Assembly: GCA_021812425.1 (NCBI GenBank)
Contig: JAKANM010000005.1
Location: 1-32,355, forward strand
Reading direction: 5' to 3'
From: a bacterium
GTDB taxonomy: Bacteria > Patescibacteriota > Patescibacteriia > Magasanikbacterales > GWA2-37-8
DNA: 32,355 nt
Made by a program: the position numbers and the translations under genes
Part shown: piece after piece, positions 4,695 through 24,260 of the stretch
Numbering within the stretch: position 1 is the first letter of the stretch
Layout: the number at the start of each line of letters is the position of its first letter
The notes under the pieces: generated by a model
Seen by the model: only the letters and a program-made list of their open reading frames with translations
Database searches by the model: none
Told to the model about the DNA's origin: nothing

Positions 4695-4718
4695 ACGTTA
4701 TCTATTGTACCTTAAAAC

Positions 4719-5408: not shown

Positions 5409-5843
5409 CTATTCTGGTTTATAATATCCACCCGTATTTACCATCAACGATAGATCACGGATGCGAGTGCCAGAGACGCTTTTGCGTTCCTGTTTAGCTT
5501 CACTGGACGGCTTTTTCGCCTCCTCAGAAGCCTTGATAAAACCGCGCAATTCACCCGCCGAATAATTTTTGTACCACAATCTTCGACTCGGGCGGCGCAA
5601 CGTCTGAACGATATTCAGGATAAAATAATGAAATGCCTGGCCGTTAATTCTAACAAAGGCCAACATTACCGCGAGGCCGCCGATCAGAAACGCCAAAAAA
5701 ACAAACAACGCGGTATCAGCCAATTTGTAGGCGACCAAGATTGGTCCGACCGCGGCAATGAGAATAATAAACTGACGCGACGTGATCGGCCCGAAAATTT
5801 TGTCTTCTACATCGATGAATTGCGGGACGGTGAACTGATCCAT
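5409..5843 (-). CDS. PrgI family protein (VirB3-like T4SS inner-membrane component)
   Basis: MDQFTVPQFIDVEDKIFGPITSRQFIILIAAVGPILVAYK with two hydrophobic segments; synteny with VirB4-like gene. Confidence 0.85.
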   Translation of the reverse strand: MDQFTVPQFIDVEDKIFGPITSRQFIILIAAVGPILVAYKLADTALFVFLAFLIGGLAVMLAFVRINGQAFHYFILNIVQTLRRPSRRLWYKNYSAGELRGFIKASEEAKKPSSEAKQERKSVSGTRIRDLSLMVNTGGYYKPE

Positions 5844-5927: not shown

Positions 5928-6944
5928 TTAAAAATCTTTTTCCATCATCAATATTGCCGCTATCTCCGGCGATTGAATCTTAAGTTTATCTTGAGAGCGC
6001 GCAAGAGGGGTCCGCTTGGATAACGACTCGCTGACCGACGAAAGATAATCCAGATAAAGCGGCGAACTTCGCCAGGCCTCGAGCGCCTCAAAAAATAATA
6101 AAATCGATTCCTCCCTGAGATTCATAAATTTTTGCTTAAGGCGCGCGGCGGCATCAGTTGGATTGCCAGCGATCCGACGAAAATCCGTAAGGGAAAAATA
6201 ACGAATTTCGTCGACCGGAGCGTATTCAAATGGCGTTTTCACATCACTCATGGTTGTTTTCACGCGTTCGGAGCTAATTTTGAATTCTGTTTTGGGCGCG
6301 GCCGGGATTGGCATCTTTTGCGGCACAACTGGAATTGCTTTCAATTTTTGCATCGACGGCATCGCGCGAATAAGGGCAGGAACTTCCTGCTCCAACCGTA
6401 TACTTTCCCTCGGATCAAATTTAGGTGGCGGTGTCGACACATTTTTTTGTTTTGCTTTTTGCACCGCTTCCTCAGCCTGCCCCTCGGACAAACCAACACC
6501 CCCTTCGATTTCTTTCCGCGTCAAAATTTCGATTGTTTCCCTTTCACCTCGAATATCTTTCAAAAATAACTGGATGACGGTACGAAATCGACTTACGTTA
6601 CCAACCGGAACCTTAAAGCTAAGAGATTTCATAATACTCTCAATCTGATCTTCCCTTCCCGAACTACGAAGCGGCATGGCCGGATGAATGGCTGGTGCCG
6701 GTTCTTCGAGCGGAGAAGATAAGTCATGCTTCACCGGTTCTGGGAGTTTGGTGGCCTTTGGCCCGTCGGCCATGTTTACGCCGACGGCACGCCGAACGGG
6801 CGATATACTTTGCTCCGGCAATTTAGCAACACGTACCGGCGCGACCGGAGGCTTTGGTGCCGGTTTTTTATCCAATTCCGAAAGCGGCACGTGCACAAAA
6901 CTGCCATCGGATTTTTTGACTAAAATTTTCAAGTTGTCGTCCAT
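5928..6944 (-). CDS. Hypothetical protein of the T4SS-like locus
   Basis: 338-aa ORF; Pro-rich N-terminal half, helical C-terminus (IRYFSLTDFRRIAGNPTDAAARLKQKFMNLREESILLFFEALEAWRSS); colinear with the locus. Confidence 0.7.
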   Translation of the reverse strand: MDDNLKILVKKSDGSFVHVPLSELDKKPAPKPPVAPVRVAKLPEQSISPVRRAVGVNMADGPKATKLPEPVKHDLSSPLEEPAPAIHPAMPLRSSGREDQIESIMKSLSFKVPVGNVSRFRTVIQLFLKDIRGERETIEILTRKEIEGGVGLSEGQAEEAVQKAKQKNVSTPPPKFDPRESIRLEQEVPALIRAMPSMQKLKAIPVVPQKMPIPAAPKTEFKISSERVKTTMSDVKTPFEYAPVDEIRYFSLTDFRRIAGNPTDAAARLKQKFMNLREESILLFFEALEAWRSSPLYLDYLSSVSESLSKRTPLARSQDKLKIQSPEIAAILMMEKDF

Positions 6945-6945
6945 A

Positions 6946-8022
6946 TTATTTATTTAACAGTTTGCTGTTCCATTCAAATTTGCTGTCCTTTTCACTAAAA
7001 ATATAAAGATCACGGACCTGATCATCACCAAATTTAGCGGCAAGACGCTGTAGTTCCCGTAGCACTTCGGAAATATTAATAAATTGCCCGTTTTGATCTT
7101 TCCTAAATTGACTTTCAATCTTGGCCCTCATTTCTGCATACGATATCTTACTATTTTTTTCAACTTTGACTTCTGAAACTTTCTTTTGAAAAGGAGGATT
7201 TATGATGGCCTGCGGCGGAGTGATGACGGGCACGGCTGGAGTTGATTTGATGCTGGGCGCAGGAGAGGACGAGGTTGGCGCAATTTGATCAGATTTTACC
7301 ATTGTTGCACTTAATTTTATCTCTTCTCCAGGAACAGGAGATTCAATTTCTTCTGGATGTGCGAAGGTGTCGACCACAAACCAAATTGTATCCGACGTAA
7401 TACCGGTAAAAAAGTTTGCCAGATCAACAAACCTTATCACCGCATTGTTTGGATCAACCAAGACATACTTCGATAATTCCGGATCATTTTTTGCCGACAT
7501 AACAACCTTTAATTTGGCGTTGTATTCCGCAACTTCTAGAGAATTGTTACCACGATCGTTAATCGTCTTTAATTCATTCACCAATTGATAAACCGCGATC
7601 TCTTTTCCTTGCCAATAACCAACGATTGCTCTCGATTCCAAAAAACTTTTTTTAATTTTTTCATAAAATTCCTCCAAATCTTTTTCATCATCCGCAATCC
7701 ATTCTGCCAAATACCACATCATCTCACGCCACACATCAATACCCAATAACATTGCCAGTGGTAACTGGCGCGCGATTGCAATATTCAGAAAAATATCGCG
7801 AGGCTGCGAGTTGAGACGACGCCAAAGTAATTCTGTGTACCAGCGAAAATAACTCGCTCGATTTTCCCAATCCTTGGTCGGTCCGGATTTTTCAAAAAAA
7901 GCATGCAATTCTTTCAATGTTGCCTCCGCCGCAACAGGATTACTAAAAACATTTTCACGAAATTGCTTTTCCTTCTCTTCTATTTGCTTTCCATTAATTG
8001 TGCCTGGTGTTACGAAAGCCAT
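6946..8022 (-). CDS. Hypothetical protein of the T4SS-like locus
   Basis: 358-aa ORF, stop 2 nt from the start of the next ORF; no recognised domain. Confidence 0.7.
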   Translation of the reverse strand: MAFVTPGTINGKQIEEKEKQFRENVFSNPVAAEATLKELHAFFEKSGPTKDWENRASYFRWYTELLWRRLNSQPRDIFLNIAIARQLPLAMLLGIDVWREMMWYLAEWIADDEKDLEEFYEKIKKSFLESRAIVGYWQGKEIAVYQLVNELKTINDRGNNSLEVAEYNAKLKVVMSAKNDPELSKYVLVDPNNAVIRFVDLANFFTGITSDTIWFVVDTFAHPEEIESPVPGEEIKLSATMVKSDQIAPTSSSPAPSIKSTPAVPVITPPQAIINPPFQKKVSEVKVEKNSKISYAEMRAKIESQFRKDQNGQFINISEVLRELQRLAAKFGDDQVRDLYIFSEKDSKFEWNSKLLNK

Positions 8023-8048: not shown

Positions 8049-10817
8049 TTATGTTTCATTTGGCTCAGGTTCTTCTTCCTCTTCACCCTTAACCGTGATT
8101 TCGCCTAGCTTCTCCCTTAAATTTTTTGCAGCTACTTTATTTTCTTTTGCCAATGCCTTTATTAATTCCCCTCTTACTCCACTGTTCATGGTTTTTAACT
8201 GATCCACCAGCCTGCTGTCCAGCTGCGTTCCTTTAGTTACCCTACTAAAGACAGAGGCAAAATTTTCCAGACTCTGTTGATCAAGCTTTGAGACGTCCTT
8301 AGTGATCCCTTCATTATTGCTGGTAATTAAGCCATCCAACGAAATGACCTTCGAGATTGGAGTCGAACCGCGCCAGTATCGCTGTTGATCTTTTGCCCTC
8401 ATTATGCCGTCCGCGTCGTTCGATTCTAATTTATACTTCGAGAACCCAGTTTTTGAATCAACTTCTTTACTATTTAGCAAACCCTTCATGACGGGTGCTC
8501 CGTCTCTTGCAACATTCTTCATCGACTCATCCAAACTTCGAAGCATCGCCTGCGCTTTCGCTTCTCCATGCATTTCTGTAAACTCACCCATAGCCTTTTC
8601 CAACCCACCCTTTTCAACTCTTTTGCCTACTAAAACTGAAAAAAGTTTTCGCTGTTGCCCTTCCAAGTCGCCAGCTCCCACCTCATCATTAAAATGAGCT
8701 GCCGTAGCCGCTTTATTAAGCGCCGTCATACCTGCCTCCGCCCCTTGCTTCATACATGAAGTCAACGTGGCAACCAAATTTTCTCCCAATCTTCTTCTTT
8801 CTTCACGATACTGCACCGGACTTAATTCCTTTTGACCTGGCCGATTAAATTTGGCATCTAAATTTGCAATATCATTGGCTATATCCGCATTCCGCTGAGT
8901 AATTTCATTAAATGTTAGATTGGCGAGACGATCCTGTTTAATTTTTGCCTGTCGCGCTACCTCCGCGGCCGCATACACCGGTTTATCACCTCTTCGTATA
9001 GCCTCATCATCCATCTTATTGGCTACCAACAATGACTTTACGGACTCCAACTGATCTTTTTGATAATCTGCCGAAGCTTTAGCAGCATATAAATCCTCCT
9101 GACGTTTTCTAAATTCCGGACTGCTCTCCAACAATCTATTCTCTTCCTCGGTTGATTTTTGTACTTTCTTCGCTTCACTTATACCTTTAGCTTGCTGTAA
9201 CCGAATATCAGCAGTTAATTTTGCTTTACCGCCGGCATAATGACCAACGCTGTAACTAGCTTCCACGGTCTCCTTTTGTGATTTAGCCGCGGTTTGCCAG
9301 TCTTCCGCTCTTTTCATCGCACGTCCCTGAGTTTCTACCACACCGGCGAGCAAACTTTTTCCGAAACGTCGCAGACCCGCTCCTTTTTCTTCCCATTTCT
9401 CAGCTTTGGCCTTGGCCTCCAATTTTTCTTTTTGGGCAATCTCTTCCGGCCTCAAAGGCTCTTTTCTTTCTCTAAGTTTCTTCAGCTCACCCAATTCCTT
9501 GCCTTCTCTCTCAAATTTTTTGGCAGCCTCCACTCTTGCTTCAGAAACCTTACCCATAGCCAGACCAACCCGTCCGGAGATTCCTTTTCCATACCTTTCC
9601 AGCGCCTCGCCGCCGATAACCGGCATCTTACGCTTCGCCAACTCCACACCCTTGCCTGCTAGTTCGTAGCCTTTTGCCGCAGTCTTCCGTACCGTACTCA
9701 CTCCACTCACCGCCATAGTCACTCTCTTTCCAATATCCACCGCCTTGCCAGTCCACTCCGCGCCGATGCCGCCGAGTTGCTGGGTAACTTTTATCCCAAC
9801 GAGGAGCATTCCGATCGCAATCACAAAATTGACGAGATTGTCCCATTTCATAGCCTTGCCAATACCGGAATCCTGGTCACACACATTCACACCAGTACCG
9901 GAGGCCTGACAAAATTGTTTATTTACCATTCCATTTCCAACCGTAACCAAAGTCAGCCATAAAAAGAAAACCAACACCGGACCGGTAATAACATTTTTAC
10001 CAAATTGACTCCACCACTCGCTGGCATACGACTTAGTCTGATCCAAAACTCCCAGCACAAAAGCGATCGGCGAAAGTACAATCAATACCCACAGCACGAT
10101 CACACGCGCGACTAACATCGCGAGTAATATTCCGCTAGTGACTAATATCGTAACTGAAATAAATAATGAAGCCAGCGCTGACAACCAAACACCCTCTGAA
10201 TTTATAGGCACACTGGTGGCGCTACTGAAACTTCTAATACTGTCCAAACTAAAAGCACGGATAAAATTACCGCCGACCGTCGAAGCGATACCGTTCACAA
10301 AAGTGATCATCACGACCTGGGCGACGTCGATAATGACCCCGCAAATAACGCGGCTGAAATTTACAAGCACCGCCGCCGCGACCAATTTGAACAACATGTG
10401 CTTCCATTCATAATGTTCAATGCCGAGTATAGTGCCGAAAGCGATGATGAGAAGGGCGACCACAAAAACCATGTTGGTCAGATCCCGCACCATAACCCAA
10501 CCGACGTTGACCGCCTCTGAATTTAAATAATTATTATAACTTGCGACCTGAACAATAAAAGTCAAAACAAAAAGCATGAGTGATAGCGCGAGGCGGGTCA
10601 CCGCCAACATTATCCTGGTCGATAAATCGAAAATAAAATCTGGAACAAACGCCACCGTGAGGGGGCTCGCCGAGCCACCGGTCTGAGCCAAAGCTTGATG
10701 AGCAAAGAGTCCAAAACTAAAAACAGAAACCAGCAAAAAAACCATGGCCAAAAAGAACACTCTTCGACCGCGTTTATTTATTTTCTCGGCGATTTTCTGA
10801 AAAAATTTGTGCACCAT
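8049..10817 (-). CDS. VirB6/TrbL-like polytopic membrane protein with long charged C-terminal region
   Basis: 922 aa; N-terminal part has several TM segments (VFVVALLIIAFGTILGIEHYEWKHMLFKLVAAAVLVNFSRVICGVIIDVAQVVMITF...), then a Lys/Glu-rich coiled-coil-like tail. Confidence 0.8.
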   Translation of the reverse strand: MVHKFFQKIAEKINKRGRRVFFLAMVFLLVSVFSFGLFAHQALAQTGGSASPLTVAFVPDFIFDLSTRIMLAVTRLALSLMLFVLTFIVQVASYNNYLNSEAVNVGWVMVRDLTNMVFVVALLIIAFGTILGIEHYEWKHMLFKLVAAAVLVNFSRVICGVIIDVAQVVMITFVNGIASTVGGNFIRAFSLDSIRSFSSATSVPINSEGVWLSALASLFISVTILVTSGILLAMLVARVIVLWVLIVLSPIAFVLGVLDQTKSYASEWWSQFGKNVITGPVLVFFLWLTLVTVGNGMVNKQFCQASGTGVNVCDQDSGIGKAMKWDNLVNFVIAIGMLLVGIKVTQQLGGIGAEWTGKAVDIGKRVTMAVSGVSTVRKTAAKGYELAGKGVELAKRKMPVIGGEALERYGKGISGRVGLAMGKVSEARVEAAKKFEREGKELGELKKLRERKEPLRPEEIAQKEKLEAKAKAEKWEEKGAGLRRFGKSLLAGVVETQGRAMKRAEDWQTAAKSQKETVEASYSVGHYAGGKAKLTADIRLQQAKGISEAKKVQKSTEEENRLLESSPEFRKRQEDLYAAKASADYQKDQLESVKSLLVANKMDDEAIRRGDKPVYAAAEVARQAKIKQDRLANLTFNEITQRNADIANDIANLDAKFNRPGQKELSPVQYREERRRLGENLVATLTSCMKQGAEAGMTALNKAATAAHFNDEVGAGDLEGQQRKLFSVLVGKRVEKGGLEKAMGEFTEMHGEAKAQAMLRSLDESMKNVARDGAPVMKGLLNSKEVDSKTGFSKYKLESNDADGIMRAKDQQRYWRGSTPISKVISLDGLITSNNEGITKDVSKLDQQSLENFASVFSRVTKGTQLDSRLVDQLKTMNSGVRGELIKALAKENKVAAKNLREKLGEITVKGEEEEEPEPNET

Positions 10818-11116: not shown

Positions 11117-11956
11117 ATGTTGATGAGAAAATTGAAGCATGAGGCGATGTTCGCATTCGCGAGGTGGTTCCCCCTGTTCGTAGCCCTCGTCGGCTGCGTT
11201 CAGCCGGGGACGAGAATCGACGACGGAACGTCGTGTGTGGTGGTAGTCGACGGCGATCAGCCGACCGACAGCGGGTACCAGACCACCGATGGTGGGAATC
11301 AAAACACCGACGGCGGCCTCAAGCTCGAGACCCCGACCGACCTGGTCGCGGTGGAGCAGAACGACATCAACGCCGTTCAGGTCACCTGGACTTCCCATTC
11401 GACTGGCGATACTGTCAGCTGGGTCGAGCAGGCCTGGGTTTTCCTGAACGACCCCACCAACAAGGTCAACTCCCGGCTGGAGAAGCTCAACAACGGAGAC
11501 ATCCTCGGGAGTTCGCTCGATGTCAGGGAGATCAAGGAATTGAAGTTCCGAGTCAAGGATTGTCTGCGGAACGACGCCAACACCTGCTCGAGTTACTCTG
11601 GAGCCATTTCGGTGCCGATTCTCCCCCTTGATGTGAAAGCACCGACTAACGTCATCGTTACCGAGATCCCATCGGAAAAAGGTCCCACCTACCGGGCGAT
11701 CCACATCAGCTGGACCGATAACTCCTACGGCGAGCTCTACAATGAGATCTACATTTGCACAAATCCGGCATGGTGTCCATCTGGCGGTCCCCTTTTCGCC
11801 ATCATTCTTTCGGCGCCATCTGTACCACCTACCACCATGACGGATGTTGACTTTTTGCCGTCGAACACCCCTTTGTGGATTCTTGTAGGTATGAGCGTGG
11901 ATCAAGGCCACCTACTGGCTTATCCTCAACCGGTCAAAATCACCACCTCGCCCTAA
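11117..11956 (+). CDS. Putative lipoprotein with fibronectin type III-like domains
   Basis: Signal peptide plus lipobox LVGC; AAGGAG Shine-Dalgarno upstream of ATG; FnIII-like strands (PTDLVAVEQNDINAVQVTWTSHS; APTNVIVTEIPSEKGPTYRAIHISWTDNS). Confidence 0.75.
   Translation: MLMRKLKHEAMFAFARWFPLFVALVGCVQPGTRIDDGTSCVVVVDGDQPTDSGYQTTDGGNQNTDGGLKLETPTDLVAVEQNDINAVQVTWTSHSTGDTVSWVEQAWVFLNDPTNKVNSRLEKLNNGDILGSSLDVREIKELKFRVKDCLRNDANTCSSYSGAISVPILPLDVKAPTNVIVTEIPSEKGPTYRAIHISWTDNSYGELYNEIYICTNPAWCPSGGPLFAIILSAPSVPPTTMTDVDFLPSNTPLWILVGMSVDQGHLLAYPQPVKITTSP
11264..11326 (+). repeat. Three-copy 21-bp tandem repeat (7-aa unit TDxGxxx)
   Basis: Encodes TDSGYQT-TDGGNQN-TDGGLKL. Confidence 0.7.
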
Positions 11957-12037: not shown

Positions 12038-15000
12038 TTATTTTATATACTTAACAACAACCTGCCCAGCAAAAGGCGTCCAAGGCCTTTGACTAGTAAT
12101 TCTACAACTGTCTCTTCCCGTGCTCCCAGCCCAACTCGAATCATAAAAACCACTGTTGACGCCAGTACTCCCACCGTTGCACCAACCCCAATTGTCTTTC
12201 ACCTGCACTTTGGGTTTAAAAATACAACAACCGTCAGGAAAATCTTTTACAGAACCACAATTCCCTGTTCCATTATTATCATAACGAAGCGGTTTGGGAT
12301 CACCTGAACAGAAGTAAGTATTTTTGGCTTCATAATAGGCATTGTCACAGGTAACATCTTTGATATGCCCATAATCACTCGCGCTGGCGATCGGCTGACA
12401 GGCCACGACCGGCGTGCTACTTGGCACTGCCCCGCGTTGATTTCGGAAGTAACCGCTACGCAAACTGACATCACTGCCGTCATCCCAATCAATAGCAACC
12501 TGGCGGATCGGCATTTGATTCTTATCCGCAAACATAAAGAAATTAAGTGAAACTGGCAAGAACGAGTCCTGAGTAGTACTTACTGCATTGATGGAATTGT
12601 TTATCGAAAAACCAAATTCAGTCGGTTCCAAATAACTTAACGCCCCATTTAACATAATTCGAGCGCCCAGCGGATGGATCTCTGGGGGAACATGTTCTAC
12701 ACCTCCCGTGATATTTGGCAACAAACCATATCCTGGAGTCAATCCATATTGCGTGCCGAACCATAAATAATTGCTGGCGTTGGCATACAACTTTGACAGA
12801 CTAACGACACCGGACTGGATGGCAGGAATAGATGAAGGAAAACTGTAGGTCTGACCATCAATTTTTGTTATTGCTGACAAATTATATTTAGCCGAACGGT
12901 CTATACCATCTGCGGCCGCGGCGGTATCATCGGCAGGGCATCCTGTTATGGCGGGTATAGCAGGATTTTTTGTGCATCCTGGTAGTGTGTATGGTGTGAA
13001 AATCAATAAATTCGACGATGGTGGTGTCGTAATATCAATACTGCCGAATGGTGACACGTTCGTGGAGTAATCATAGTTAATACCGGCGACAGGGCTAGGC
13101 ACTGTGTATGCATTTAACCCCTTCCCGTTTATATTCCAAAGACGATCGGTCCACGGTACGGTTCGATATTGTTTGGAGAAATCGTTAGCACTACCGACTA
13201 AATTAATCCTGGCATCAACCGCCACTTTACAGGTCTGACGCAATTTATAGGTAATCCGGTAGCCGATTTCATCAGTATTGCCGTATGCAACCGTTGCACC
13301 ACCACATGCTGTAGCGACGGCTAAAGGAACGTATATATTTGAACTATTATTAGCTTCATTATTCCAACTGCCACAAAAATATGTGTCTATACTCTTAAAC
13401 GTTGGCGCAAAATCAATGTTTATGGCATGCGATAACACCGGTTCACTAGCATAAGAAAAATTAGGTCCAGAAGAAGGAGGAATTGGACAAGCTTGAGTTA
13501 TACTATTATTCGGAAGAACCCACAAACTTCTACCTTGTAACCAGGGTAAGGTTAAGTTAGTATTAAAATTTGCGTAAAGAAGCGGATATGGAGCAGAAAT
13601 TTTGTTCCCCATCTCACCTGCCAACCCACTGTAGTTTGCCCCCCCATAACTCCAGTACGACGAAATCTGCTCGTTGTCTGGTAGATGAATACCGGTTCCG
13701 CCGTCTGGATTAGCAAAAGGTGACGGCGTAGCCAGATAAGTATAAAACATAATAAAATGCGAACCGCCGGTACTGTCTTTATAAAAACCTCCTACCACTC
13801 CGCCGGTAGTGTTGTCCTTATTCAATACCTTATAATAGGGTTGCCAATCATTCGTTAGCGTTAGGTTTGGAAATTTAAACGTTGCCCCACTCGTTATATT
13901 TTTATCTCCACCGCTACTTATTACTTGAACGTCGATCTCTTCGATATCATCAATATTAATATCCCTCATCGTATTATCCGTTAGTCCACTATATTGGACG
14001 CTGCTATTTCCGATGTTGAACGTTTTTTGAACTTGATCATAATTTATTTGGCTATGGTTTCCCCAAAAGTCATACCAGCACTTTCTAGCCGTTCCAGCCC
14101 CTCCGGTTTTTAATATCGCCTGATATTGCGGCACGCCAAACCCTTGGTCGATAGTCGGGTCATAGCCGGTAGGGGTACTGTAATTTTTAATACCACCGGG
14201 GGAGAAAACTAGATCAAATGTTTTGTTAGTAGCCGGATCATTGGCCGGAGCAGAGCTATTTAAACAATATTGTCCACCATTTTTTTGTGTAATCTGCCAA
14301 TCACTTAGCGCCTCGGTATGCTGAGCATTGATATCTGCCACACCAGCAAGCGATTCAATCGGATACCAGGTAAGGCACACATTCTGAGCTACGTCACTAT
14401 TTAGATGCCTGGTGCTATCGGTCTCCAGACAAAAACCTTTGAGACCAACAAAGGCGTGTGAGCTCTTCAATACTTCACAAACTCCACCAAGACCGCAATC
14501 CCCATCAACTTTGCACTCTTCCCCATCCAGAGGTTTACTACCGCCACTAACTCCGCCAAGACAAATACCCGCTGGCGGTTTGTCCAACGTCGGGTTTTTT
14601 GACTTCTGACTTGCGTTTAAAATCAAATTTCTGTCAGTAGAACTCGCTTCATCATATTTCCAATATTTTGTGAAAATATCACCGTACTGCACTTTGCGAT
14701 AATCACATTCACATTGATTATTTCCCTTGTCTCCGCTATTATTCTCATCACAAATATGGGCATTCCTGAAGAATGATGAACCGCCCCTTCCGGAGACACC
14801 CACGATCTTCTGCGTACTCGGGAATGGTGAATCAACCTCCGGGTAGGCACGACACGATTGTGGGTTGGCGGAAATAGCTGACTTACCATCGGGAGATTGG
14901 ACGCATTTATGATTGACACAATCACCGGAATTTCCGACGCCGCAATTGGCCTTCCCATCGGTTGCGCACGGGCTAGGATCGATGCGTTTTACCAATCTCC

Positions 15001-18000
15001 AATCAGGCGTACTGGTCGTAGTAGAAGCAAAATTCATTTGCTCTAGATTGTCGACGGCATAAATACCAGGAATTGAGAACCCGTCATAGTCCAGATCATA
15101 CCAGCTGGTGCCGCGCTGACGATAGGTGCTAACATCCAAAATCGAACTAGTAGCATTTTGAACGCAACGACTGACGCTATTGCAACGACCCAAATTACCC
15201 TGAGTGGTTTCTTTGTAGGAATTGCTTTGATCATCGTAAACAGAATATGACAACATCGGTTTCAACCATTCACCACACTCGCGATCCTGGGCAACTTTCA
15301 TAATGGTATTGGCGTCATTACCACCGTCGTTAACCGGATTCACAAGAGCGCCGCTGTTATCGTTGCTATCCTTGTAGGTAGTGGTGGTATGCCAGGATTT
15401 GGTAGGAACATCAGTCTGATCAAACAACGCACAGCCGGCTTTCTGACTCACCTGTCCGCTACAGTTGCCCTCATTAACCTTGTCATTCTTGATCAGATAG
15501 TACGATTTGCCTTTTCCACTACTATCAACATCGGCATGATCGACGAACTCAGTACATCTATTTTGATCGGCGGGACAAAGTCCAACAAAATTTTTATAAT
15601 CGGTCGCTCCGGAAGAAACCAATCCGAAATCCGAGTAGCATGGCTGATTGTCTCCATAAAGAACGCAAGTATCACCAGCGCCGCAATCCGCCGAAGCTGA
15701 AGCTTTAGTACATGATATACCCTTATCCTTATAACAATATCCAATCGGATTTGTCCTGAACCAGCCATCAACGCGAGCCAGACCCCACTGCACGCCAGTT
15801 CGGTATTCACAAAGCTGACTGCTGATCTCGGGGTCTTTGAAATAATTCGTTTCCGCCCCATCAGAAAATGCGCTGCACCCTACTGCCTCAGATTGGCAAA
15901 GTGTTGAGCTGTATTTGCTTGGATCATTTTTTATAGTGGTTGTAACGTAAGCCGTAACACCTGCATTATTAATTTTGACACCGGCGTAAGAACAGCCTAT
16001 ATCCGCCTGACTGCACGACGCGCTCTGATTTGCTACGAGATAAATCGGGGTGGTTGACGGGGTATCAGCCGGGATGATAATCGCGGAATTTGTAATCGCT
16101 GAATCCCCAATCGCGGCTCGAATCTCTTCCGGCGTATGTCCCAATATATCCACATAACAACCGCTCCGACCGGACGGTACTATACAAGAATAAGTATCGC
16201 CGTTGACAGCAGGAACCGTATGGCTGAGGGTCGCGACGGCAGTGCCACCCCGATCGCCGAGCTGCGGCACTGACGTAGAAACAGCAAACCAAACATTGTA
16301 AACATCAGCGAGCGGACTCACGGTATTGTGTGTATCAAACAAACCGGTACAACCGATCGCGCCCTCGCGGCAAAGTGAACTAAAATTCGTCAAATCCAAA
16401 ATATGATTTTGCGGATCGGTATAGGCCTGACAGCCGAGCGCCTCCCCCGGAAGCCCGTCGCCAGGATGGCTGTTGCAGACCGGATCAACGCTGAGGGACT
16501 TCTTCACTAGATAAAGATAATCAGCGACTTTGACGAGCCGGATATTATCTAAGTAAGTTGTAAGAGTGATGCTAGATTTGAAATCCAAACTTGCAGTAGT
16601 CGTATTCGCCAAATATTCTGCCGGCCCGAGGTGGTATTGTTGCCAAACACCCTTCTTTATACTGACAGTGTTCAGGGTACCAAAAGGAATTTCCGACGAT
16701 CCGTCGGCGGGGATAATTTTAACTGTTACCGTGGCATCGGAATCCGAGTAGGCCCAGAAAGTTAGATCATACGTTTTGCCAATGTCGAAGCTGACCCTAC
16801 GCCCAACTTCACCAAGAGCATAAGTCGCATCGCCAAAATTAAATGCTAACGAATGTTCGCCAACATGAGTTGAAACGCCTGACAGGCTCATAGCCACACT
16901 GGCGTGCGCCACCCAATTATTGATCGAACTTGGGTCTTCAAAAGTATCAGTAAAAATATTTTGAATATTATTACCGGCGTTACCTTTGTAGGCCCTGCAG
17001 GTATCGGCCGCGGCGGAACAAGACTGACTGGCGCCGGCATTATTTGTCACTCCAGAGGCGAGGCCTTCATAAATACAGACGCCATTTTGGTATTTTCCGT
17101 TGCTTAAACACTTTTTACAAACTCCAGACGGCTTTTCGCTTGTATCCCAAAAACCATATTGATTTAAGCATGCCCCCTCGGTAGACGCCGTTGAATCGTT
17201 ATAGAAAGCTGCTTCACTTATCCGATATGGAGTGCAGGCGTCAGTAACCGGAATCGTCTTTGAAAGCAAACGATAATAAATGTTCCCAGCTTCATCATTA
17301 AACTGGCGACAATCAAGGGAAGCAGTCCCAGCTTTGTATCGAAGCTCCGTACACTCCGCGTTAAGCTGAGCGAGTTCAACCGGGTCCTTGAAAAAATATT
17401 TAGGGGCGTTAAGCGGTCCGTTCACAAGATCATCATTTGGAAGCAAACTATAAGTCTTCAACTGAAATCCGACTTTAGCTGATCCTTCATAGGTGATATA
17501 GGTTTTTCCTTTACCGTCCGGCGTCTCATCTGGCTTCAGACAAGTGCGTAGGCTGGTAAAATATTCAACCCGCTCACTTTTGCCGGTGGTGGTAGAAAGG
17601 TTCGTGAAGCTAGTGCAGCCCTGATCCTGGATGGTGCAGGCATTACCCGAGGCAGGGATAATATACGCAAGGTCTTGCCCGTTCGAATAATTCGCCGGCA
17701 TTTCACGATAAACATTGTAGCCAACGCATTTCGCGTCGCACTGATCATTCCAAATCACTTGATTGCCGGAAATTTCCGCCGGCTTAAATTTACCAGGGAT
17801 TCTAGATCCTCCGCCGCTCTTCGGTGTGTACCAATTACAACCGCGCTCCTCCGCCGTACAAACTCCAGCATAATTGGAACAAGCGGCATCACCCTTGATG
17901 TTTGCAAGGGAGGCGGTGCTCGTCGGCCAATCAATCGCCGGAGTAGTTGGGTTGCTGTCATAACATTTTAGGTAATCCGGAGCTTTTTTCAAATTAAGTT

Positions 18001-19987
18001 GAACAGAAGTTGACGAGGCGACCTGAAAAGCCGAACATCCGACCGCGCTCACCGGACAATTTTTTTCGACTTGATTATTTAGGAAGACGCCGGAATTTAT
18101 AATCGGAGAAACACTGAGGTTTACACCCGGATTTTTCCATTTCCCAGATTTATCCAAACTGTAAGCCTGACAGCCGATATTTTGGCTGGTACAAAAACTT
18201 TTATCCACCGTGCTGAGCAGATAACTCACCGTCTTGTCATTAATATCCTTAAAGGAACGGCAGGTAGCGAATTGCCCGCTGCATGTATCAGCCGGAAACT
18301 TCCAGGTATTTTTTTCTCTAGTGCAATAAGCATAGTCCGCGCAACTACCGTCGGCATTGGTCTGGACGCAAGTTTGCAGATCAACACAATCTTGCAGACG
18401 ATTCGGCACGTCAGCACTCGCAAGGCTGGCGCTATTTACGAGAGCTTTGCATTTAGCGAGCGGGGCTTTCAACACCCAATTCGGATCGATCAAATGGCAG
18501 TACGGATGAGCTGGATCCTCCACGGCCAAATTCGGTCCGCAATCCGAAAATCCATTCACTACCTGGCTCAATTTCCAAGGCTGGCTGACATCGCTTCTTT
18601 GCGCGGCCAACTCAAACCCGAGCGGCAAAATACGAACCTGGCGTAGAACGCGAGCGTTATTCAAACAATATCCGGTGCGGTAACAATTAATATCATTATT
18701 TTTTGTTTCGGCAAGAGGAGAAACAAAAGTTTTGTTGCCGTCTAATATCCCGGCCTTAATCGCCGCGCCAATCGTCATTTGCTGGTTGATGGCATTGACC
18801 AAATCGTCACCAAGGCGGCAATTGTAAATGCCAGGACTATCAGGGCAACTATTTAATTGTGAGACCAAATCATATTGTGTCGGCTCTTGAATTTTAACGG
18901 CCGTCAAATAGCTAAAAAAACTCTGCGCCGCCGCCCGACCCAAAGAAGAAAGACCTGCGCCCTCGTAACTCAGAGGATTTCCGGTGCTTCCAAAGCCGCC
19001 ACCCGCTCCGGCACCTCCCGCTCCCGATGTACCGCTACAGCCGGCGCCGCCGAGACCGCCAACACAAAGCCCGAAAGGAAGGATACCTTTAGTTTGAAAA
19101 TTATTGATGATGTTGCTACCGAGGGTGCTTAGAAAAATCGAAAGAATAGTCGGAAAAACCTTAACGTCGCCTGAGGCAAGCGCGGCATTCAAGGTCGCTT
19201 CGTTTGATTTGACAGTCTCATCCGGAGTCTGACTGCCTGCGACTTTCTTCACATCCTGAGCTGGGGTCGTAATATCGCCGCTCACCTTAGTTTCAGCTGA
19301 TTTGAAACCCTGGCCTTCGGTTCGACTAAGGGTGGCGGATTCCCTTTGCGACCTGACAAGATTACCGATTTTTTCTGTTTGCTGGGCATAAATTCCAAAA
19401 TCACTGTCATCCGCCTTAAGACTAACATTGAACGCCCCTGTCAAGGCACCGGGTTCGGAAAATTTACTAAGACCACTTTTCCAGGCGTCAAAAAATTGAC
19501 GAGTATTACAAGCTGGTTTAGGCGGAGGACTGCCGCCAAATTCAGTTCTGAGACCTACTTTCAACGCGAGGTCTACTTTGATATCCGGAACTTTACACAA
19601 ATTCAGACCATTAGCTTCTCCTAACGCTCCGATTGCAGTGCCACCGGCATCATTGGCAACGTCTTCCAGATAACTGCCGAAGCCCTTTTGGAAAGCCATC
19701 GCTCCCTGGCCTTTTCCGCCAGAAGCGACCCATACTGCCGAATCATACGCAACTTTACGTAAAACGAAAGAAGCAGTCTTGACACCGGCGTTGAGGAGCG
19801 CCGCTTTAAGAAAGCCTAAAATAGTATCGATTATCTTATTCGTCACATCTGGGACACTCGCATCAACTAATACCGGCATACCGGCCTGCGCCGCCTGTGG
19901 CAAGAATACCCCCGCCGTCCCCACGAACAAAAAAATCGCGACTATCACGCCGAAACTAAATTTTTTGAATCGTGAAAACATAATCAA
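12038..19987 (-). CDS. Giant Cys-rich putative secreted/surface protein of the T4SS-like locus
   Basis: 2649-aa ORF; N-terminal signal/TM (FSFGVIVAIFLFVGTAGVFLPQAAQAG), recurrent GCxxY/F motifs, CBM4/9-like jelly-roll segment, PKD-like segment (AIDWDDGSD...VQVKDNWGWC). Confidence 0.88.
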   Translation of the reverse strand: MIMFSRFKKFSFGVIVAIFLFVGTAGVFLPQAAQAGMPVLVDASVPDVTNKIIDTILGFLKAALLNAGVKTASFVLRKVAYDSAVWVASGGKGQGAMAFQKGFGSYLEDVANDAGGTAIGALGEANGLNLCKVPDIKVDLALKVGLRTEFGGSPPPKPACNTRQFFDAWKSGLSKFSEPGALTGAFNVSLKADDSDFGIYAQQTEKIGNLVRSQRESATLSRTEGQGFKSAETKVSGDITTPAQDVKKVAGSQTPDETVKSNEATLNAALASGDVKVFPTILSIFLSTLGSNIINNFQTKGILPFGLCVGGLGGAGCSGTSGAGGAGAGGGFGSTGNPLSYEGAGLSSLGRAAAQSFFSYLTAVKIQEPTQYDLVSQLNSCPDSPGIYNCRLGDDLVNAINQQMTIGAAIKAGILDGNKTFVSPLAETKNNDINCYRTGYCLNNARVLRQVRILPLGFELAAQRSDVSQPWKLSQVVNGFSDCGPNLAVEDPAHPYCHLIDPNWVLKAPLAKCKALVNSASLASADVPNRLQDCVDLQTCVQTNADGSCADYAYCTREKNTWKFPADTCSGQFATCRSFKDINDKTVSYLLSTVDKSFCTSQNIGCQAYSLDKSGKWKNPGVNLSVSPIINSGVFLNNQVEKNCPVSAVGCSAFQVASSTSVQLNLKKAPDYLKCYDSNPTTPAIDWPTSTASLANIKGDAACSNYAGVCTAEERGCNWYTPKSGGGSRIPGKFKPAEISGNQVIWNDQCDAKCVGYNVYREMPANYSNGQDLAYIIPASGNACTIQDQGCTSFTNLSTTTGKSERVEYFTSLRTCLKPDETPDGKGKTYITYEGSAKVGFQLKTYSLLPNDDLVNGPLNAPKYFFKDPVELAQLNAECTELRYKAGTASLDCRQFNDEAGNIYYRLLSKTIPVTDACTPYRISEAAFYNDSTASTEGACLNQYGFWDTSEKPSGVCKKCLSNGKYQNGVCIYEGLASGVTNNAGASQSCSAAADTCRAYKGNAGNNIQNIFTDTFEDPSSINNWVAHASVAMSLSGVSTHVGEHSLAFNFGDATYALGEVGRRVSFDIGKTYDLTFWAYSDSDATVTVKIIPADGSSEIPFGTLNTVSIKKGVWQQYHLGPAEYLANTTTASLDFKSSITLTTYLDNIRLVKVADYLYLVKKSLSVDPVCNSHPGDGLPGEALGCQAYTDPQNHILDLTNFSSLCREGAIGCTGLFDTHNTVSPLADVYNVWFAVSTSVPQLGDRGGTAVATLSHTVPAVNGDTYSCIVPSGRSGCYVDILGHTPEEIRAAIGDSAITNSAIIIPADTPSTTPIYLVANQSASCSQADIGCSYAGVKINNAGVTAYVTTTIKNDPSKYSSTLCQSEAVGCSAFSDGAETNYFKDPEISSQLCEYRTGVQWGLARVDGWFRTNPIGYCYKDKGISCTKASASADCGAGDTCVLYGDNQPCYSDFGLVSSGATDYKNFVGLCPADQNRCTEFVDHADVDSSGKGKSYYLIKNDKVNEGNCSGQVSQKAGCALFDQTDVPTKSWHTTTTYKDSNDNSGALVNPVNDGGNDANTIMKVAQDRECGEWLKPMLSYSVYDDQSNSYKETTQGNLGRCNSVSRCVQNATSSILDVSTYRQRGTSWYDLDYDGFSIPGIYAVDNLEQMNFASTTTSTPDWRLVKRIDPSPCATDGKANCGVGNSGDCVNHKCVQSPDGKSAISANPQSCRAYPEVDSPFPSTQKIVGVSGRGGSSFFRNAHICDENNSGDKGNNQCECDYRKVQYGDIFTKYWKYDEASSTDRNLILNASQKSKNPTLDKPPAGICLGGVSGGSKPLDGEECKVDGDCGLGGVCEVLKSSHAFVGLKGFCLETDSTRHLNSDVAQNVCLTWYPIESLAGVADINAQHTEALSDWQITQKNGGQYCLNSSAPANDPATNKTFDLVFSPGGIKNYSTPTGYDPTIDQGFGVPQYQAILKTGGAGTARKCWYDFWGNHSQINYDQVQKTFNIGNSSVQYSGLTDNTMRDINIDDIEEIDVQVISSGGDKNITSGATFKFPNLTLTNDWQPYYKVLNKDNTTGGVVGGFYKDSTGGSHFIMFYTYLATPSPFANPDGGTGIHLPDNEQISSYWSYGGANYSGLAGEMGNKISAPYPLLYANFNTNLTLPWLQGRSLWVLPNNSITQACPIPPSSGPNFSYASEPVLSHAINIDFAPTFKSIDTYFCGSWNNEANNSSNIYVPLAVATACGGATVAYGNTDEIGYRITYKLRQTCKVAVDARINLVGSANDFSKQYRTVPWTDRLWNINGKGLNAYTVPSPVAGINYDYSTNVSPFGSIDITTPPSSNLLIFTPYTLPGCTKNPAIPAITGCPADDTAAAADGIDRSAKYNLSAITKIDGQTYSFPSSIPAIQSGVVSLSKLYANASNYLWFGTQYGLTPGYGLLPNITGGVEHVPPEIHPLGARIMLNGALSYLEPTEFGFSINNSINAVSTTQDSFLPVSLNFFMFADKNQMPIRQVAIDWDDGSDVSLRSGYFRNQRGAVPSSTPVVACQPIASASDYGHIKDVTCDNAYYEAKNTYFCSGDPKPLRYDNNGTGNCGSVKDFPDGCCIFKPKVQVKDNWGWCNGGSTGVNSGFYDSSWAGSTGRDSCRITSQRPWTPFAGQVVVKYIK

Positions 19988-20580
19988 CGAGTGGAAGTGG
20001 CAGTAAGAGTGCTGCTAGCCATCAGCTGAGCAACCATCGACAACAATTCTTGATCGGTAAGTTTGTTTAAAATTTCTTTTTTCATCCCGGATTGAACAAG
20101 GAGTTCCCTGATCTGAGCCGGATCGCTTACAATTTGATTTATATTCTTCGGAATATTTTCAGCGCTGGACGGAAATGCGATGGTAGTCGTCGGTCCAAGC
20201 GGAGTACCGGCGTCAGAACAATTCTTGCCGGCGTTGGCGCAACGCGCCAATCCTTTCGCAACTACTTCCTTATCACTCATGCCGTAACCAAAAGTATCAT
20301 ACAGATATGGACTGGTACCATAGGTATACAGCTCATCAAAATCTGAGAGGCCGTCGCCGTCCGTGTCTCGATAACGAAGCGCGTCGACATCGTTGACCTG
20401 ATCTTTGAGTGAAGCAGGAATTTTACTGTTGAGGGCAAAAGGCGCAAGCATCGTGTTGCGAATTTGTAACACTCCGAGCGTCAGCCCCATCACCGCAAAA
20501 ACTAATAATAACACAAAACCAGTCTTCTGCTCAGCAGTAAGACTTCGCTTCGCTGAACCCGCTGGTTGTTCGTCCGGCAT
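19984..20580 (-). CDS. Membrane-anchored protein with thrombospondin type 3-like Ca-binding motif
   Basis: TM TGFVLLLVFAVMGLTLGVLQI; DTDGDGLSDFDELYTYGTSPYLYDT; 4-nt overlap with the 2649-aa ORF. Confidence 0.75.
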   Translation of the reverse strand: MPDEQPAGSAKRSLTAEQKTGFVLLLVFAVMGLTLGVLQIRNTMLAPFALNSKIPASLKDQVNDVDALRYRDTDGDGLSDFDELYTYGTSPYLYDTFGYGMSDKEVVAKGLARCANAGKNCSDAGTPLGPTTTIAFPSSAENIPKNINQIVSDPAQIRELLVQSGMKKEILNKLTDQELLSMVAQLMASSTLTATSTR

Positions 20581-20649: not shown

Positions 20650-20722
20650 GGTCATTCTGAGCAAAGCGAAGGATCTCTTACGGTTGAGATATAAAGGATT
20701 CTTCGTTTCACTCAGAATGACA
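20650..20722. repeat. Palindromic element copy 1 (TCATTCTGAG family)
   Basis: GGTCATTCTGAGCAAAGCGAAGGATCTCTTA ... AAAGGATTCTTCGTTTCACTCAGAATGACA; contains the rsmA stop codon. Confidence 0.88.
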
Positions 20723-21692
20723 GTTGTCGAAACAATTCAATCCAATCATTCACTGATAATTCCTGCGCTCTGATGGTCGGTAAAAAATTCAATTCTTCAA
20801 AAATTTTCCGGAGTTTCTCCTTATTTTCTTTACCAATGAACGGCTCAAGATTTTTCGTCAACAACTTTCTCCGATTCGCAAATCCTGCCTTCACCAGGCT
20901 AAAAAAATTTTTATCGTCGCTCCAAATGTCATCCTGAGGCGTAGCCGAAGGATCCCTTAAACCACCAGACACAAGGGATTCTTCGCTCCGCTCAGAATGA
21001 CAAGTGTGCTGTCTTGGTATGATCGATATCACCGCCGAATCCACCCGCGGCGACGGCCAAAAGCTCTCCCGAGGAACAATAAACTCCAGCTTTGGTTCAG
21101 CATAATATTGCACCGATACCGAGAGCAACGACATCTCCCCAGGCTCGGCGCAAATCCTCTCCGCCACTTCCTTTTGGACCATGAGCACCATCGCCTCTGG
21201 GGGGGGTGCAGTTTCAAGAAATAAACGAATGACCGCCGATGTGATCTGATATGGTAAATTCGCCACGACTTTGAATTTTGGAAATTGGAAATTAGGATTT
21301 AGGAATTGCTTCAAAACGTTTCCCCAAACAATTTCAATATTACGCTCGTCATTTCGAGCAGAGCGAGAAATCTCTGTCATAATTGTCGAATCGGACAGAG
21401 ATCTTTCACTTCGTTCAAGATGACAACCATGTTCTTCCCAATACGGCTGAAGTTTTTTTTCAATTTCAAAACTAATCACTCTACCGGCTCTTTCTGCGAG
21501 CGGAAAGGTAAGAACACCGAAGCCGGGACCGACCTCGACGATTGTCTCATCTTTTGTAACCGCGGCGACCTCTAAAATTTTATTTAGAATCTCTTCATCA
21601 ATTAAATAATTCTGACCATATTTCTTGGATGGATTCAGATTATATTTCGACGCGAGGTGAAATAGGTAATCTGGATTGTACAAATTTGGCAT
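20712..21692 (-). CDS. rsmA: 16S rRNA (adenine1518/1519-N6)-dimethyltransferase RsmA/KsgA with two in-frame palindrome insertions
   Basis: YGQNYLIDEEILNKI, ETIVEVGPGFGVLTFPLAERAGRVISFEIE, VVANLPYQITSAVI; extra peptides CHLERSERSLSDS... and CHSERSEESLVSGG... Confidence 0.92.
   Translation of the reverse strand: MPNLYNPDYLFHLASKYNLNPSKKYGQNYLIDEEILNKILEVAAVTKDETIVEVGPGFGVLTFPLAERAGRVISFEIEKKLQPYWEEHGCHLERSERSLSDSTIMTEISRSARNDERNIEIVWGNVLKQFLNPNFQFPKFKVVANLPYQITSAVIRLFLETAPPPEAMVLMVQKEVAERICAEPGEMSLLSVSVQYYAEPKLEFIVPRESFWPSPRVDSAVISIIPRQHTCHSERSEESLVSGGLRDPSATPQDDIWSDDKNFFSLVKAGFANRRKLLTKNLEPFIGKENKEKLRKIFEELNFLPTIRAQELSVNDWIELFRQLSF
20927..21002. repeat. Palindromic element copy 2, in frame within rsmA
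   Basis: TGTCATCCTGAGGCGTAGCCGAAGGATCCCTTA ... AAGGGATTCTTCGCTCCGCTCAGAATGACA; encodes CHSERSEESLVSGGLRDPSATPQDD. Confidence 0.93.
21347..21425. repeat. Palindromic element copy 3 (TTTCGAG...GACAGAG subfamily), in frame within rsmA
   Basis: CGTCATTTCGAGCAGAGCGAGAAATCTCTGTC ... GACAGAGATCTTTCACTTCGTTCAAGATGACA; encodes CHLERSERSLSDSTIMTEISRSARNDE. Confidence 0.9.
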
Positions 21693-21700
21693 ATTTTGTC

Positions 21701-22048
21701 TGTCATCCTGAGTGAAACGAAGGATCCCTTATGTCCACTCATCACTCAAGTCTTTCCATGTTGGATTAACCATTTTTATAAGCGAAACCTTGAACAATCG
21801 TTTTTTTCCTTTTAAATATTTCTCCCGATTTATTGCTTGATTTATATCTGAATAATCTTCATAATAAACCAACTTTTTGCAACCATATTTTTTTGAAAAA
21901 TCGTCAACTAATTCTAGTCTATGTTCAGAAATCCTTCTTTGCAAATCGTTCGTAACACCAATATACAATGTACCACTAAGACTAGCTAGAATATAAACAT
22001 GATATGTTTTCATAGTTTAAGGGATTCTTCGCTCCGCTCAGAATGACA
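21701..22048. mobile_element. Putative GIY-YIG-bearing palindromic element A (348 bp)
   Basis: 31-nt inverted arms 21701-21731 (TGTCATCCTGAGTGAAACGAAGGATCCCTTA) and 22018-22048 (TAAGGGATTCTTCGCTCCGCTCAGAATGACA), 26/31 matching, enclosing a GIY-YIG ORF. Confidence 0.8.
21729..22013 (-). CDS. GIY-YIG nuclease family protein
   Basis: YHVYILASLSGTLYIGVTNDLQRRISEH...NREKYLKG; stop codon lies at the inner edge of the left arm. Confidence 0.9.
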   Translation of the reverse strand: MKTYHVYILASLSGTLYIGVTNDLQRRISEHRLELVDDFSKKYGCKKLVYYEDYSDINQAINREKYLKGKKRLFKVSLIKMVNPTWKDLSDEWT

Positions 22049-22090
22049 CTGTTGCCTGTTCAGAATGACAATTTTATTTCTCTTTCACCC

Positions 22091-22106
22091 GTCACTCGCG
22101 AGTGAC
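22091..22106. repeat. Perfect 16-bp palindrome GTCACTCGCGAGTGAC
   Basis: Self-complementary; contains the stop codon of ORF 22092-23252. Confidence 0.8.
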
Positions 22107-23252
22107 AGGTTTCAGCCCAGCGCTCGTATACCGATTCGACGCGTTCCAAAGCATCCAGCCGGCGGAGGTATACTTTTCCACCGCGTTAATTTCCGCCCTG
22201 ATCATCTCGCCATCGTAAACTGCTCCAAGATCAAACGCCTGAAGCCAAGGCCGAAGTTCGGCGCGGCTGTTTTTGAAACGAGGAACGCCCAACGTCATGC
22301 CATGGGTAATAACCAAATCAGGGTGAGCGGCCGGATTCTGAAGCCCGAGGTGGCCGGGCGGATAGTGCGAGGGATACATCATCGGAGAAATATAGTCCGC
22401 TACCGGAAGCGCGTCATCAAGCCGCTGGCCGATATTCATATCATCCTCGCCCGTCTTCTCCATCACAAACCCAAACATATCAAACGAAATCCAGGCCGAC
22501 AGAAAACGCAACTCCGAGGTTAAATAATTATAAAATTTTGCCAGCGTATGGTATTTTTTTTGACCGATGTCGCTATAGACTACCGTCGCCATATTGCCGT
22601 CGGAAGGAAAACGAATATAATCAAAATTTATTTCATCAAAGCCATATTTTATCGCATCCTTCGCGATCGCCACATTATACTCCCAGACTTCCTTTTTGGT
22701 GGCGTCTACCCAGGCAAGTCCCTTGTGATCGCGCCACAGTCCGCCGCCTTGTCTTTTTAGCGCCAAATCAGGATTTCTCTCCGCCAAAATCGGATCCTGG
22801 AACACAGTCTGACGGGCAATAACATAAATATGATGGGCATGTAATTTTTTAATCGTCGCGGCGAGGTCATAATACCGATTGTCCACCAAATGCATTTTTA
22901 TCGCGAGCGGCACCTGAGTTTTGAACAATACCAGGCCGCTATAATCCTTGATATCCATCACCACGGCGTTGAGTTCGGTGCGATCTATAAGATTAATTAT
23001 CTCATCAATTTTTTTCGGGCTGCCGGCGGAGTAAGCCGTCAGATAAACGGCTTTAACAATTTGCTTTGGAGTTTTATGCCGCCTTGATAAGACCGCAATC
23101 GAACTTGATGTAGATCTGCCGACAATATCAATGGTGATCCGATCGAGATCAGTGTTGACCGATTGCCAAGTATAAACAATGCAAAAAAAAGCGGCGACGC
23201 TGGCGATTGCAACGGCTGAAATAAATATTTTTGGGTTTATAATCCGATTCAT
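22092..23252 (-). CDS. Putative glycoside hydrolase (DUF4015-like)
   Basis: AVYLTAYSAGSPKKIDEIINLIDRTELNAVVMDIKDYSGLVLFKT...GFDEINFDYIRFPSDG. Confidence 0.85.
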   Translation of the reverse strand: MNRIINPKIFISAVAIASVAAFFCIVYTWQSVNTDLDRITIDIVGRSTSSSIAVLSRRHKTPKQIVKAVYLTAYSAGSPKKIDEIINLIDRTELNAVVMDIKDYSGLVLFKTQVPLAIKMHLVDNRYYDLAATIKKLHAHHIYVIARQTVFQDPILAERNPDLALKRQGGGLWRDHKGLAWVDATKKEVWEYNVAIAKDAIKYGFDEINFDYIRFPSDGNMATVVYSDIGQKKYHTLAKFYNYLTSELRFLSAWISFDMFGFVMEKTGEDDMNIGQRLDDALPVADYISPMMYPSHYPPGHLGLQNPAAHPDLVITHGMTLGVPRFKNSRAELRPWLQAFDLGAVYDGEMIRAEINAVEKYTSAGWMLWNASNRYTSAGLKPVTRE

Positions 23253-23863
23253 AACTCAACCTTTAATTCGCCCTGCCTCAAAACCGAAAATTTTCCGCCG
23301 ACAACTCCTATTATCGTGGTCGGCTGGCGTTTTGGCAAAACGCCATAATTCAAAATCAGATCCGGTTGAGCGGGGCGATTTTCAAATGTTTTATAAATTT
23401 CATCAGCGTCGTAAATTTCACCGACATCGGAAATGTTCGCCGACGTTGCCACCAGCGGGCGGCCGATCTTCTCGGTGATTGATATAAGCAGTGGAAAATC
23501 CGTAACTCTGACTGCCAGCGTCCCATCCCGCGACACGACACCGTTGGCCAAACTTTCGCTCCGCGCTTCTCCAACTATCGTCACCGCTCCCGGCCAATAT
23601 TTTATTGCCAATTTGTTCAACGTTTGATTCCATTTTAGATATTTCTTCGCCATCTCTATCGTCGGCACGACGACGAGCATCGGCTTATCGGATTTTCTGC
23701 CTTTAATTTTGAAAATTTCGTCGACGGATTTTTGATTCGTCGCGTCACAGCCGAGGCCATAGGAAGTTTCGGTCGGAAATACAATAATTTTACCGTTCAA
23801 AATCTCAACGATAATTTCGGATAAATTGCATTCGGAAAGTATTTTCATATTCGATTTGTCCAA
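23249..23863 (-). CDS. Sua5/YciO/YrdC/YwlC family, threonylcarbamoyl-AMP synthase-like
   Basis: KIIVFPTETSYGLGCDATNQKSVDEIFKIKGRKSDKPMLVVV; PLVATSANISD. Confidence 0.92.
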   Translation of the reverse strand: MDKSNMKILSECNLSEIIVEILNGKIIVFPTETSYGLGCDATNQKSVDEIFKIKGRKSDKPMLVVVPTIEMAKKYLKWNQTLNKLAIKYWPGAVTIVGEARSESLANGVVSRDGTLAVRVTDFPLLISITEKIGRPLVATSANISDVGEIYDADEIYKTFENRPAQPDLILNYGVLPKRQPTTIIGVVGGKFSVLRQGELKVEL

Positions 23864-23875
23864 CGCCGTTTGTTA

Positions 23876-24256
23876 TGTCATTCCCGGCCATGACCGGGAA
23901 TCCACAATTACCCAAATGGATTTAATTCACTATACAAATCTTTCCACTCTGGATTCTCTTTAGTAATTAAATCAATTTTCCATTCTCGATTCCACTTTTT
24001 AACTTGTGTTTCTCTGGCAATGGCAACATTTACATCATTATATTCTTCGTAATAAACCAAATCGTGTACTTGATATTTTTTTGTAAATCCATCTTTTTGA
24101 TCATTTTTGTGTTCGTAAATTCGGCGAATTAGACTATTGGTAACGCCGACGTATAATGTGCCATTTCGACCGCTTGCTAAAATATATAAATAGTAATTGT
24201 TGCCCAACATAAACAGAAAACGAATTGTGGATTCCCGATGCTGCTCGGGAATGACA
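23876..24256. mobile_element. Putative GIY-YIG-bearing palindromic element B (381 bp)
   Basis: 34-nt inverted arms 23876-23909 (TGTCATTCCCGGCCATGACCGGGAATCCACAATT) and 24223-24256 (AATTGTGGATTCCCGATGCTGCTCGGGAATGACA); each arm has its own internal hairpin. Confidence 0.8.
23908..24210 (-). CDS. GIY-YIG nuclease family protein
   Basis: YYLYILASGRNGTLYVGVTNSLIRRIYEHK...AIARETQVKKWNREWK; stop codon overlaps inner edge of the left arm. Confidence 0.9.
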   Translation of the reverse strand: MLGNNYYLYILASGRNGTLYVGVTNSLIRRIYEHKNDQKDGFTKKYQVHDLVYYEEYNDVNVAIARETQVKKWNREWKIDLITKENPEWKDLYSELNPFG

Positions 24257-24260
24257 TCGC

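Follow-up and report, generated by a model that had tools for sequence, protein, structure and literature searches.

A giant cysteine-rich secreted protein encoded before virB6 in a patescibacterial type IV secretion operon: a candidate host-contact component

The window (the whole 32,355-nt stretch of DNA analyzed) contains an operon of type IV secretion system (T4SS) genes on the minus strand, and within it lies the gene for a giant Cys-rich secreted protein (12038–19981). The conserved upstream neighbor rsmA/ksgA (20712–21692) is followed by a gene for a 198-aa transmembrane protein with a TSP3-type calcium-binding repeat (19984–20580), which is conserved directly upstream of the giant gene and ends 2 nt from its ATG. 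Beyond the giant gene are genes for a polytopic 922-aa VirB6-like protein (8049–10817), assigned from topology and conserved gene order with no Pfam family, and for two operon proteins of 358 aa (6946–8022) and 338 aa (5928–6944) without a known family. These are followed by a gene for a PrgI/VirB3-like protein (5409–5843; Pfam PF12666, E = 6e-9). VirB4 is encoded by two genes (window positions 2817–5405), one for a TrsD-like N-terminal part (VirB4N, 4719–5405; NF041427, E = 7e-10, below the cut-off of the model) and one for the ATPase part (2817–4694; NF045971, above the cut-off, E = 3e-106), and the split is kept through the class. Judged from the NF045971 match, the VirB4 assignment is certain. 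A gene for a ComF-like phosphoribosyltransferase, identified by sequence reading (1602–2252), marks the end of the operon.

Wherever the contig allowed a check, the order rsmA, TSP3-repeat gene, giant gene, virB6, one or two unnamed genes, prgI, virB4N, and virB4 was conserved in the taxonomic order and in most of the class. A first-pass annotation, made from the sequence alone, had named association with T4SS genes in relatives as a test of its proposal, and the conserved VirB6/PrgI/VirB4 neighborhood bears that association out. By the company of its gene with those for VirB6, PrgI, VirB4N, and VirB4 across the clade, the giant protein is a probable component of a patescibacterial T4SS. The gene is present in 56 of 57 close-relative genomes (its own counted) and as a single copy in its own 742-kb genome, and its N-terminal profile was detected in 263 of the 287 genomes of the class and in 229 of the 242 that are near complete. 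The class is probably ABY1, because the comF–virB4 neighborhood matches the one described for ABY1 in the accessible part of a 2025 T4SS survey (PMC12102498). In the same part of that survey, patescibacterial T4SSs are described as widespread and mostly missing a relaxase, and Patescibacteria have elsewhere been described as monoderm (PMC12857230). The system in the window is a relaxase-poor, monoderm-type T4SS of the kind outlined in those sections of the survey; it has in common with the systems described there, and with that of Ca. Southlakia epibionticum, the core of PrgI, TrsD-like VirB4N, and VirB4, and arrays of VirB2-like pilins. The genome contains many VirB2-like T4SS pilin genes (genome G000, contigs C41, C14, C10, and C46; loci L175–L182), about nine of them in tandem on C41; Thioredoxin_4 proteins lacking CxxC are encoded close to the pilin matches on C10 and C46. 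The accessible text of the survey makes no mention of a giant Cys-rich component.

Architecture and cysteines of the giant protein

The open reading frame spans 12038–19987 on the minus strand, and the plus strand there is full of stop codons. An open reading frame of 2649 aa had been annotated at this position with the strand left unstated; it exists as described if translation begins at the TTG at 19987. The start is, however, likely to be the ATG at 19981, two codons after the TTG. Because the TGA of the upstream gene (19986–19984) leaves a gap of 2 nt before this ATG, a product of 2647 aa, translated together with the upstream neighbor, is most likely. Residues 1–33 (19883–19981) form a predicted signal peptide, FSFGVIVAIFLFVGTAGVFLPQAAQA, which ends in AQA before a G. 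Its hydrophobicity, together with an A-x-A cleavage site kept in relatives in the family alignment, marks it as a cleavable signal for the general export route, in agreement with the secretion proposed earlier from the N terminus. A hydrophobicity scan of the protein found no other segment to match the signal peptide and no C-terminal anchor or terminal transmembrane segment, and no LPxTG sorting signal was found at the C terminus (...PWTPFAGQVVVKYIK). Searches with Pfam, NCBIfam, and PHROGs found no effector domain.

The signal peptide precedes an N-terminal domain (N-domain; residues 36–300, 19082–19876) that contains invariant Cys129 and Cys158; AlphaFold predicted it to be mostly helical at low confidence, with blocks at pLDDT 33–77. 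Two Cys-rich regions, I (residues 370–1000, 16982–18874) and II (residues 1166–1910, 14252–16486), were delimited by motif occurrence, alignment, and window comparison; both contain C-x6-C-x2-[YF] repeats, and parts of the Cys-rich sequence, including parts of region I, were modeled at pLDDT above 90. Between them lies a predicted jelly-roll domain of CBM4/9 type (residues 1009–1116, 16634–16957). The isolated segment scored 29.3 bits against PF02018, over the Pfam cut-off of 25.9, and the whole protein scored 22.9 bits, under it. In a profile search against the PDB the segment matched carbohydrate-binding modules, best 1gui (E = 1.8e-8), and the matches included S-layer-associated enzymes. 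The domain is present in 37 of 55 homologs. It resembles CBM4/9 modules such as that of laminarinase 16A (1gui), although the protein around it is Cys-rich and has no recognized enzyme domain.

The next 530 residues (1911–2440, 12662–14251) are poor in Cys, poorly modeled, and hypervariable, with 27–49% identity within genera versus 40–85% in other regions of the protein. The C-terminal domain (residues 2441–2647, 12041–12661), about 200 residues long, is conserved and was delimited in the family alignment; it again contains Cys and may be PKD/Ig-like, by the pattern DWxDG...VQVxDNWGW only. Foldseek searches of two AlphaFold models against the PDB returned no match for residues 36–1005 and only weak matches for the C-terminal third, the best to a streptococcal serine protease (E = 0.011).

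The protein contains 92 Cys residues. Seven Cys peptides had been quoted in the first-pass annotation under the pattern xxGC(Q/S/T)(A/S)(Y/F); all seven are present, but two, GCNWY and GCALF, do not fit that pattern, and the actual recurrent motif is C-x6-C-x2-[YF]. Its looser form, C-x5-7-C-x2-[YF], occurs 9 times versus 0.68 expected (maximum of 4 in 200 shuffles), and CxxxxxGCxx[YF] occurs 5 times versus 0.02 expected. When non-overlapping motif windows were compared as profiles, 69% of pairs exceeded a probability of 50, versus 3% among control windows with other Cys residues and 0% among Cys-free windows. The excess over shuffles and the similarity among windows indicate that the repeats read in the sequence are real, though degenerate, as had been proposed.

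An alignment of 39 relatives shows conservation of at least 80% at 78 of the 92 Cys residues, and 50 residues reach at least 95% in a class-wide set of 58 relatives, despite sequence identities that drop to 25–35%. The number of Cys is even in 54 of the 58, and of 70 Cys columns present in only some relatives, 35 appear and vanish together with a partner column (none in shuffles), although the sequences are related by descent and the trials behind both counts are thus not independent. The correlated presence concerns neighboring Cys pairs. Because the residues are conserved and their number is even in nearly all relatives, intramolecular disulfides are very likely, in keeping with the disulfide-stabilized repeats first envisaged. 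A Dsb or VKOR oxidase, which the same annotation had suggested seeking, was only partly forthcoming: VKOR was not found in the protein's own assembly (94% complete), and the best DsbA-like protein of that genome reads CPFS and has no CxxC, yet VKOR was detected in 37 of the 54 genomes of the relatives search.

The slot before virB6 and comparison with known systems

A broadened profile of the N-domain also found N-domain proteins in other classes. The confirmed examples (loci L119, L155–L163, L169, and L174) have a signal peptide and occupy the slot after rsmA and before virB6, mostly with the TSP3 gene between rsmA and the N-domain gene; in L158 the contig starts at the N-domain gene, and in L157 the TSP3-type match lies downstream of it. 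Most of these proteins are 280–880 aa long and have no Cys-rich extension, the shortest being about 280 aa (L157, L159, and L174). The simplest history starts from a secreted ancestral component of the T4SS whose gene preceded virB6 and which would have been extended in this class by about 2300 residues, or about eightfold.

Further genomes encode a secreted protein of 430–750 aa in the slot; its profile match to the N-domain had a probability of 47%, at which homology is not claimed. Weak N-domain matches (E = 0.01–0.1) in family f32 and similar genomes were discarded as TsaD-like proteins. In other classes, secreted proteins of 781 aa (L199, 6219–8564) and 1002 aa (L204, 3824–6832), with 28 and 33 Cys residues, follow runs of small open reading frames upstream of virB4; they were rejected as relatives of the giant protein and by sequence look like lysozymes or transglycosylases of VirB1 type. 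In another class, an open reading frame of 1435 aa with 23 Cys (L197, 12093–16400) lies upstream of a gene for a VirB6-like protein that is itself Cys-rich (22 Cys).

The VirB6 platform of diderm systems is the docking site of VirB5, which caps the pilus (PMC12857230). VirB5/TrbJ proteins have a signal peptide and are encoded directly before virB6, and both features are found in the giant protein. Because the N-domain is shared with the slot proteins and the gene order is kept, the giant protein is assigned a VirB5-like position, which its predicted helical N-domain would occupy. A VirB5/TrbJ relationship at the sequence level was nevertheless rejected, as profile searches with VirB5/TrbJ models gave no sequence match to the giant protein. 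In a check for a helical bundle of the kind that docks on VirB6 as a pentamer, the N-domain model was helical at low confidence and had no Foldseek match. The roughly eightfold extension with Cys repeats also sets the giant protein apart from VirB5/TrbJ.

TraN, of which the first-pass annotation had suggested the giant protein may be an analogue, has 22 conserved Cys residues and a variable tip that binds outer-membrane proteins of the recipient; like the giant protein it is secreted, Cys-rich, and T4SS-encoded, combines a conserved body with a variable part, and has a proposed role in contact (PMC9246713). TraN is, in contrast, a ~600-aa outer-membrane protein of diderms, and the giant protein, with its 2647 aa and 92 Cys residues, differs from it in N-domain and gene order. 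The TraN family model (PF06986) matched neither the giant protein nor anything in its genome, although the control search found the E. coli protein, and Foldseek searches of two AlphaFold models gave no TraN fold match. Kinship with TraN was therefore rejected; the giant protein may work like TraN, yet it falls outside the TraN family on present evidence. PrgB, from monoderm MPF-FATA conjugation, is likewise a T4SS-linked surface protein proposed to join donor and recipient, but it is anchored to the cell wall through LPxTG, whereas the giant protein has no C-terminal anchor. The accessible part of the 2025 survey reports that Patescibacteria yielded no PrgB-type adhesin (PMC12102498).

Candidate roles

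With a probability of roughly 0.6, the giant protein is an extracellular host-contact component (adhesin) of the lineage's chromosomal T4SS, with its N-domain docked on VirB6. The contact role fits because the protein has both a jelly roll and a hypervariable segment, features that favor the part of the first-pass proposal concerned with contact and adhesion; the part that invoked TraN gives way to a putative VirB5-like position. In the proposed mechanism, the Cys residues would pair intramolecularly after export and so lend rigidity to an extended series of small modules. By docking on VirB6 in the manner of diderm VirB5, the helical N-domain would keep at the mouth of the channel a protein that is itself anchored in neither the membrane nor the cell wall. 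The N-domain is proposed for this task because it is secreted, predicted to be helical, and in the VirB5 position, and because the genome contains arrays of VirB2-like pilins. The Cys-rich part would then extend outward, the jelly roll and hypervariable segment would bind a glycan or protein on the host-cell surface, and binding would clamp the two cells together for transfer, a function resembling that of TraN or PrgB. A more specific and tentative extension of this proposal is that the N-domain is the patescibacterial equivalent of VirB5, fused in this class to a giant disulfide-rich adhesin; the T4SS or a VirB2-type pilus might then have a covalent host-recognition tip, with the hypervariable segment setting the host range of the epibiont. 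Relaxed constraint can be another source of the rapid divergence of that segment.

Most members of the very large phylum Patescibacteria are uncultured, and those in culture live on other microbes. The giant secreted protein, near-universal in the T4SS operons of one class, is a specific candidate for the means by which the machine makes contact with the host. Its N-domain, common to slot proteins of other classes, is a testable candidate for a VirB5-like component, and its hypervariable segment gives access to host specificity at the sequence level. The available part of the survey reports T4SS genes to be essential for epibiotic growth in one genetically tractable species (PMC12102498), and the giant protein is a good candidate for a host-gripping part not found by earlier T4SS surveys, as far as that part represents them.

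The protein could instead be a structural part of the conduit, a rigid extracellular scaffold that crosses the cell wall or S-layer and replaces the outer core proteins (VirB7/9/10), which are nearly absent in Patescibacteria according to the accessible sections of PMC12102498. Its size, its Cys-stabilized structure, and the presence of its gene alongside virB6 in the T4SS operon at every locus that could be checked suit such a scaffold. A jelly roll and 530 hypervariable residues would be odd in a conserved conduit, however, and other classes manage with slot proteins of mostly 280–880 aa, so that a conduit role is considered rather unlikely. Less probable still, the operon may simply house the gene of a general cell-surface protein or of one resembling an S-layer protein. 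A large secreted protein with a carbohydrate-binding-type domain, one whose matches include S-layer-associated enzymes, would suit that description, but members of the N-domain family that have nothing of the remaining protein still occupy the slot before virB6 in other classes, and the gene order is preserved over the whole class. The position of the gene and the variable C-proximal part might also suggest a giant effector secreted by the T4SS; this is improbable for a protein with a general-export signal peptide, no effector-domain match in the three databases searched, near universality in the class, and a conserved C terminus unlike that of variable-tip toxins. That the giant protein is a true, divergent TraN homolog is the least credible reading: the shared secretion, Cys content, T4SS linkage, and variable region (PMC9246713) are outweighed by the negative PF06986 search with its working control, an about fourfold greater length, and an N-domain common to slot proteins that are not Cys-rich.

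Other features of the operon

Among relatives, the length of the VirB6-like protein ranges widely, from about 820 to 1830 aa. Between the giant gene and virB6, on the opposite strand, a higher-GC stretch contains an open reading frame for a predicted lipoprotein of 279 aa with an LVGC lipobox (11117–11956, plus strand), for which no family match and, in the fetched loci, no relative were found. Two small GIY-YIG open reading frames (21729–22013 and 23908–24210) each lie between inverted copies of a palindromic repeat (window positions 20650–24260), and a related one is situated between the giant gene and virB6 in L034. Together with their repeats, these are possibly small mobile elements. Copies of the repeat also occur within the rsmA open reading frame, where they are translated in frame as SERSEES-type peptides.
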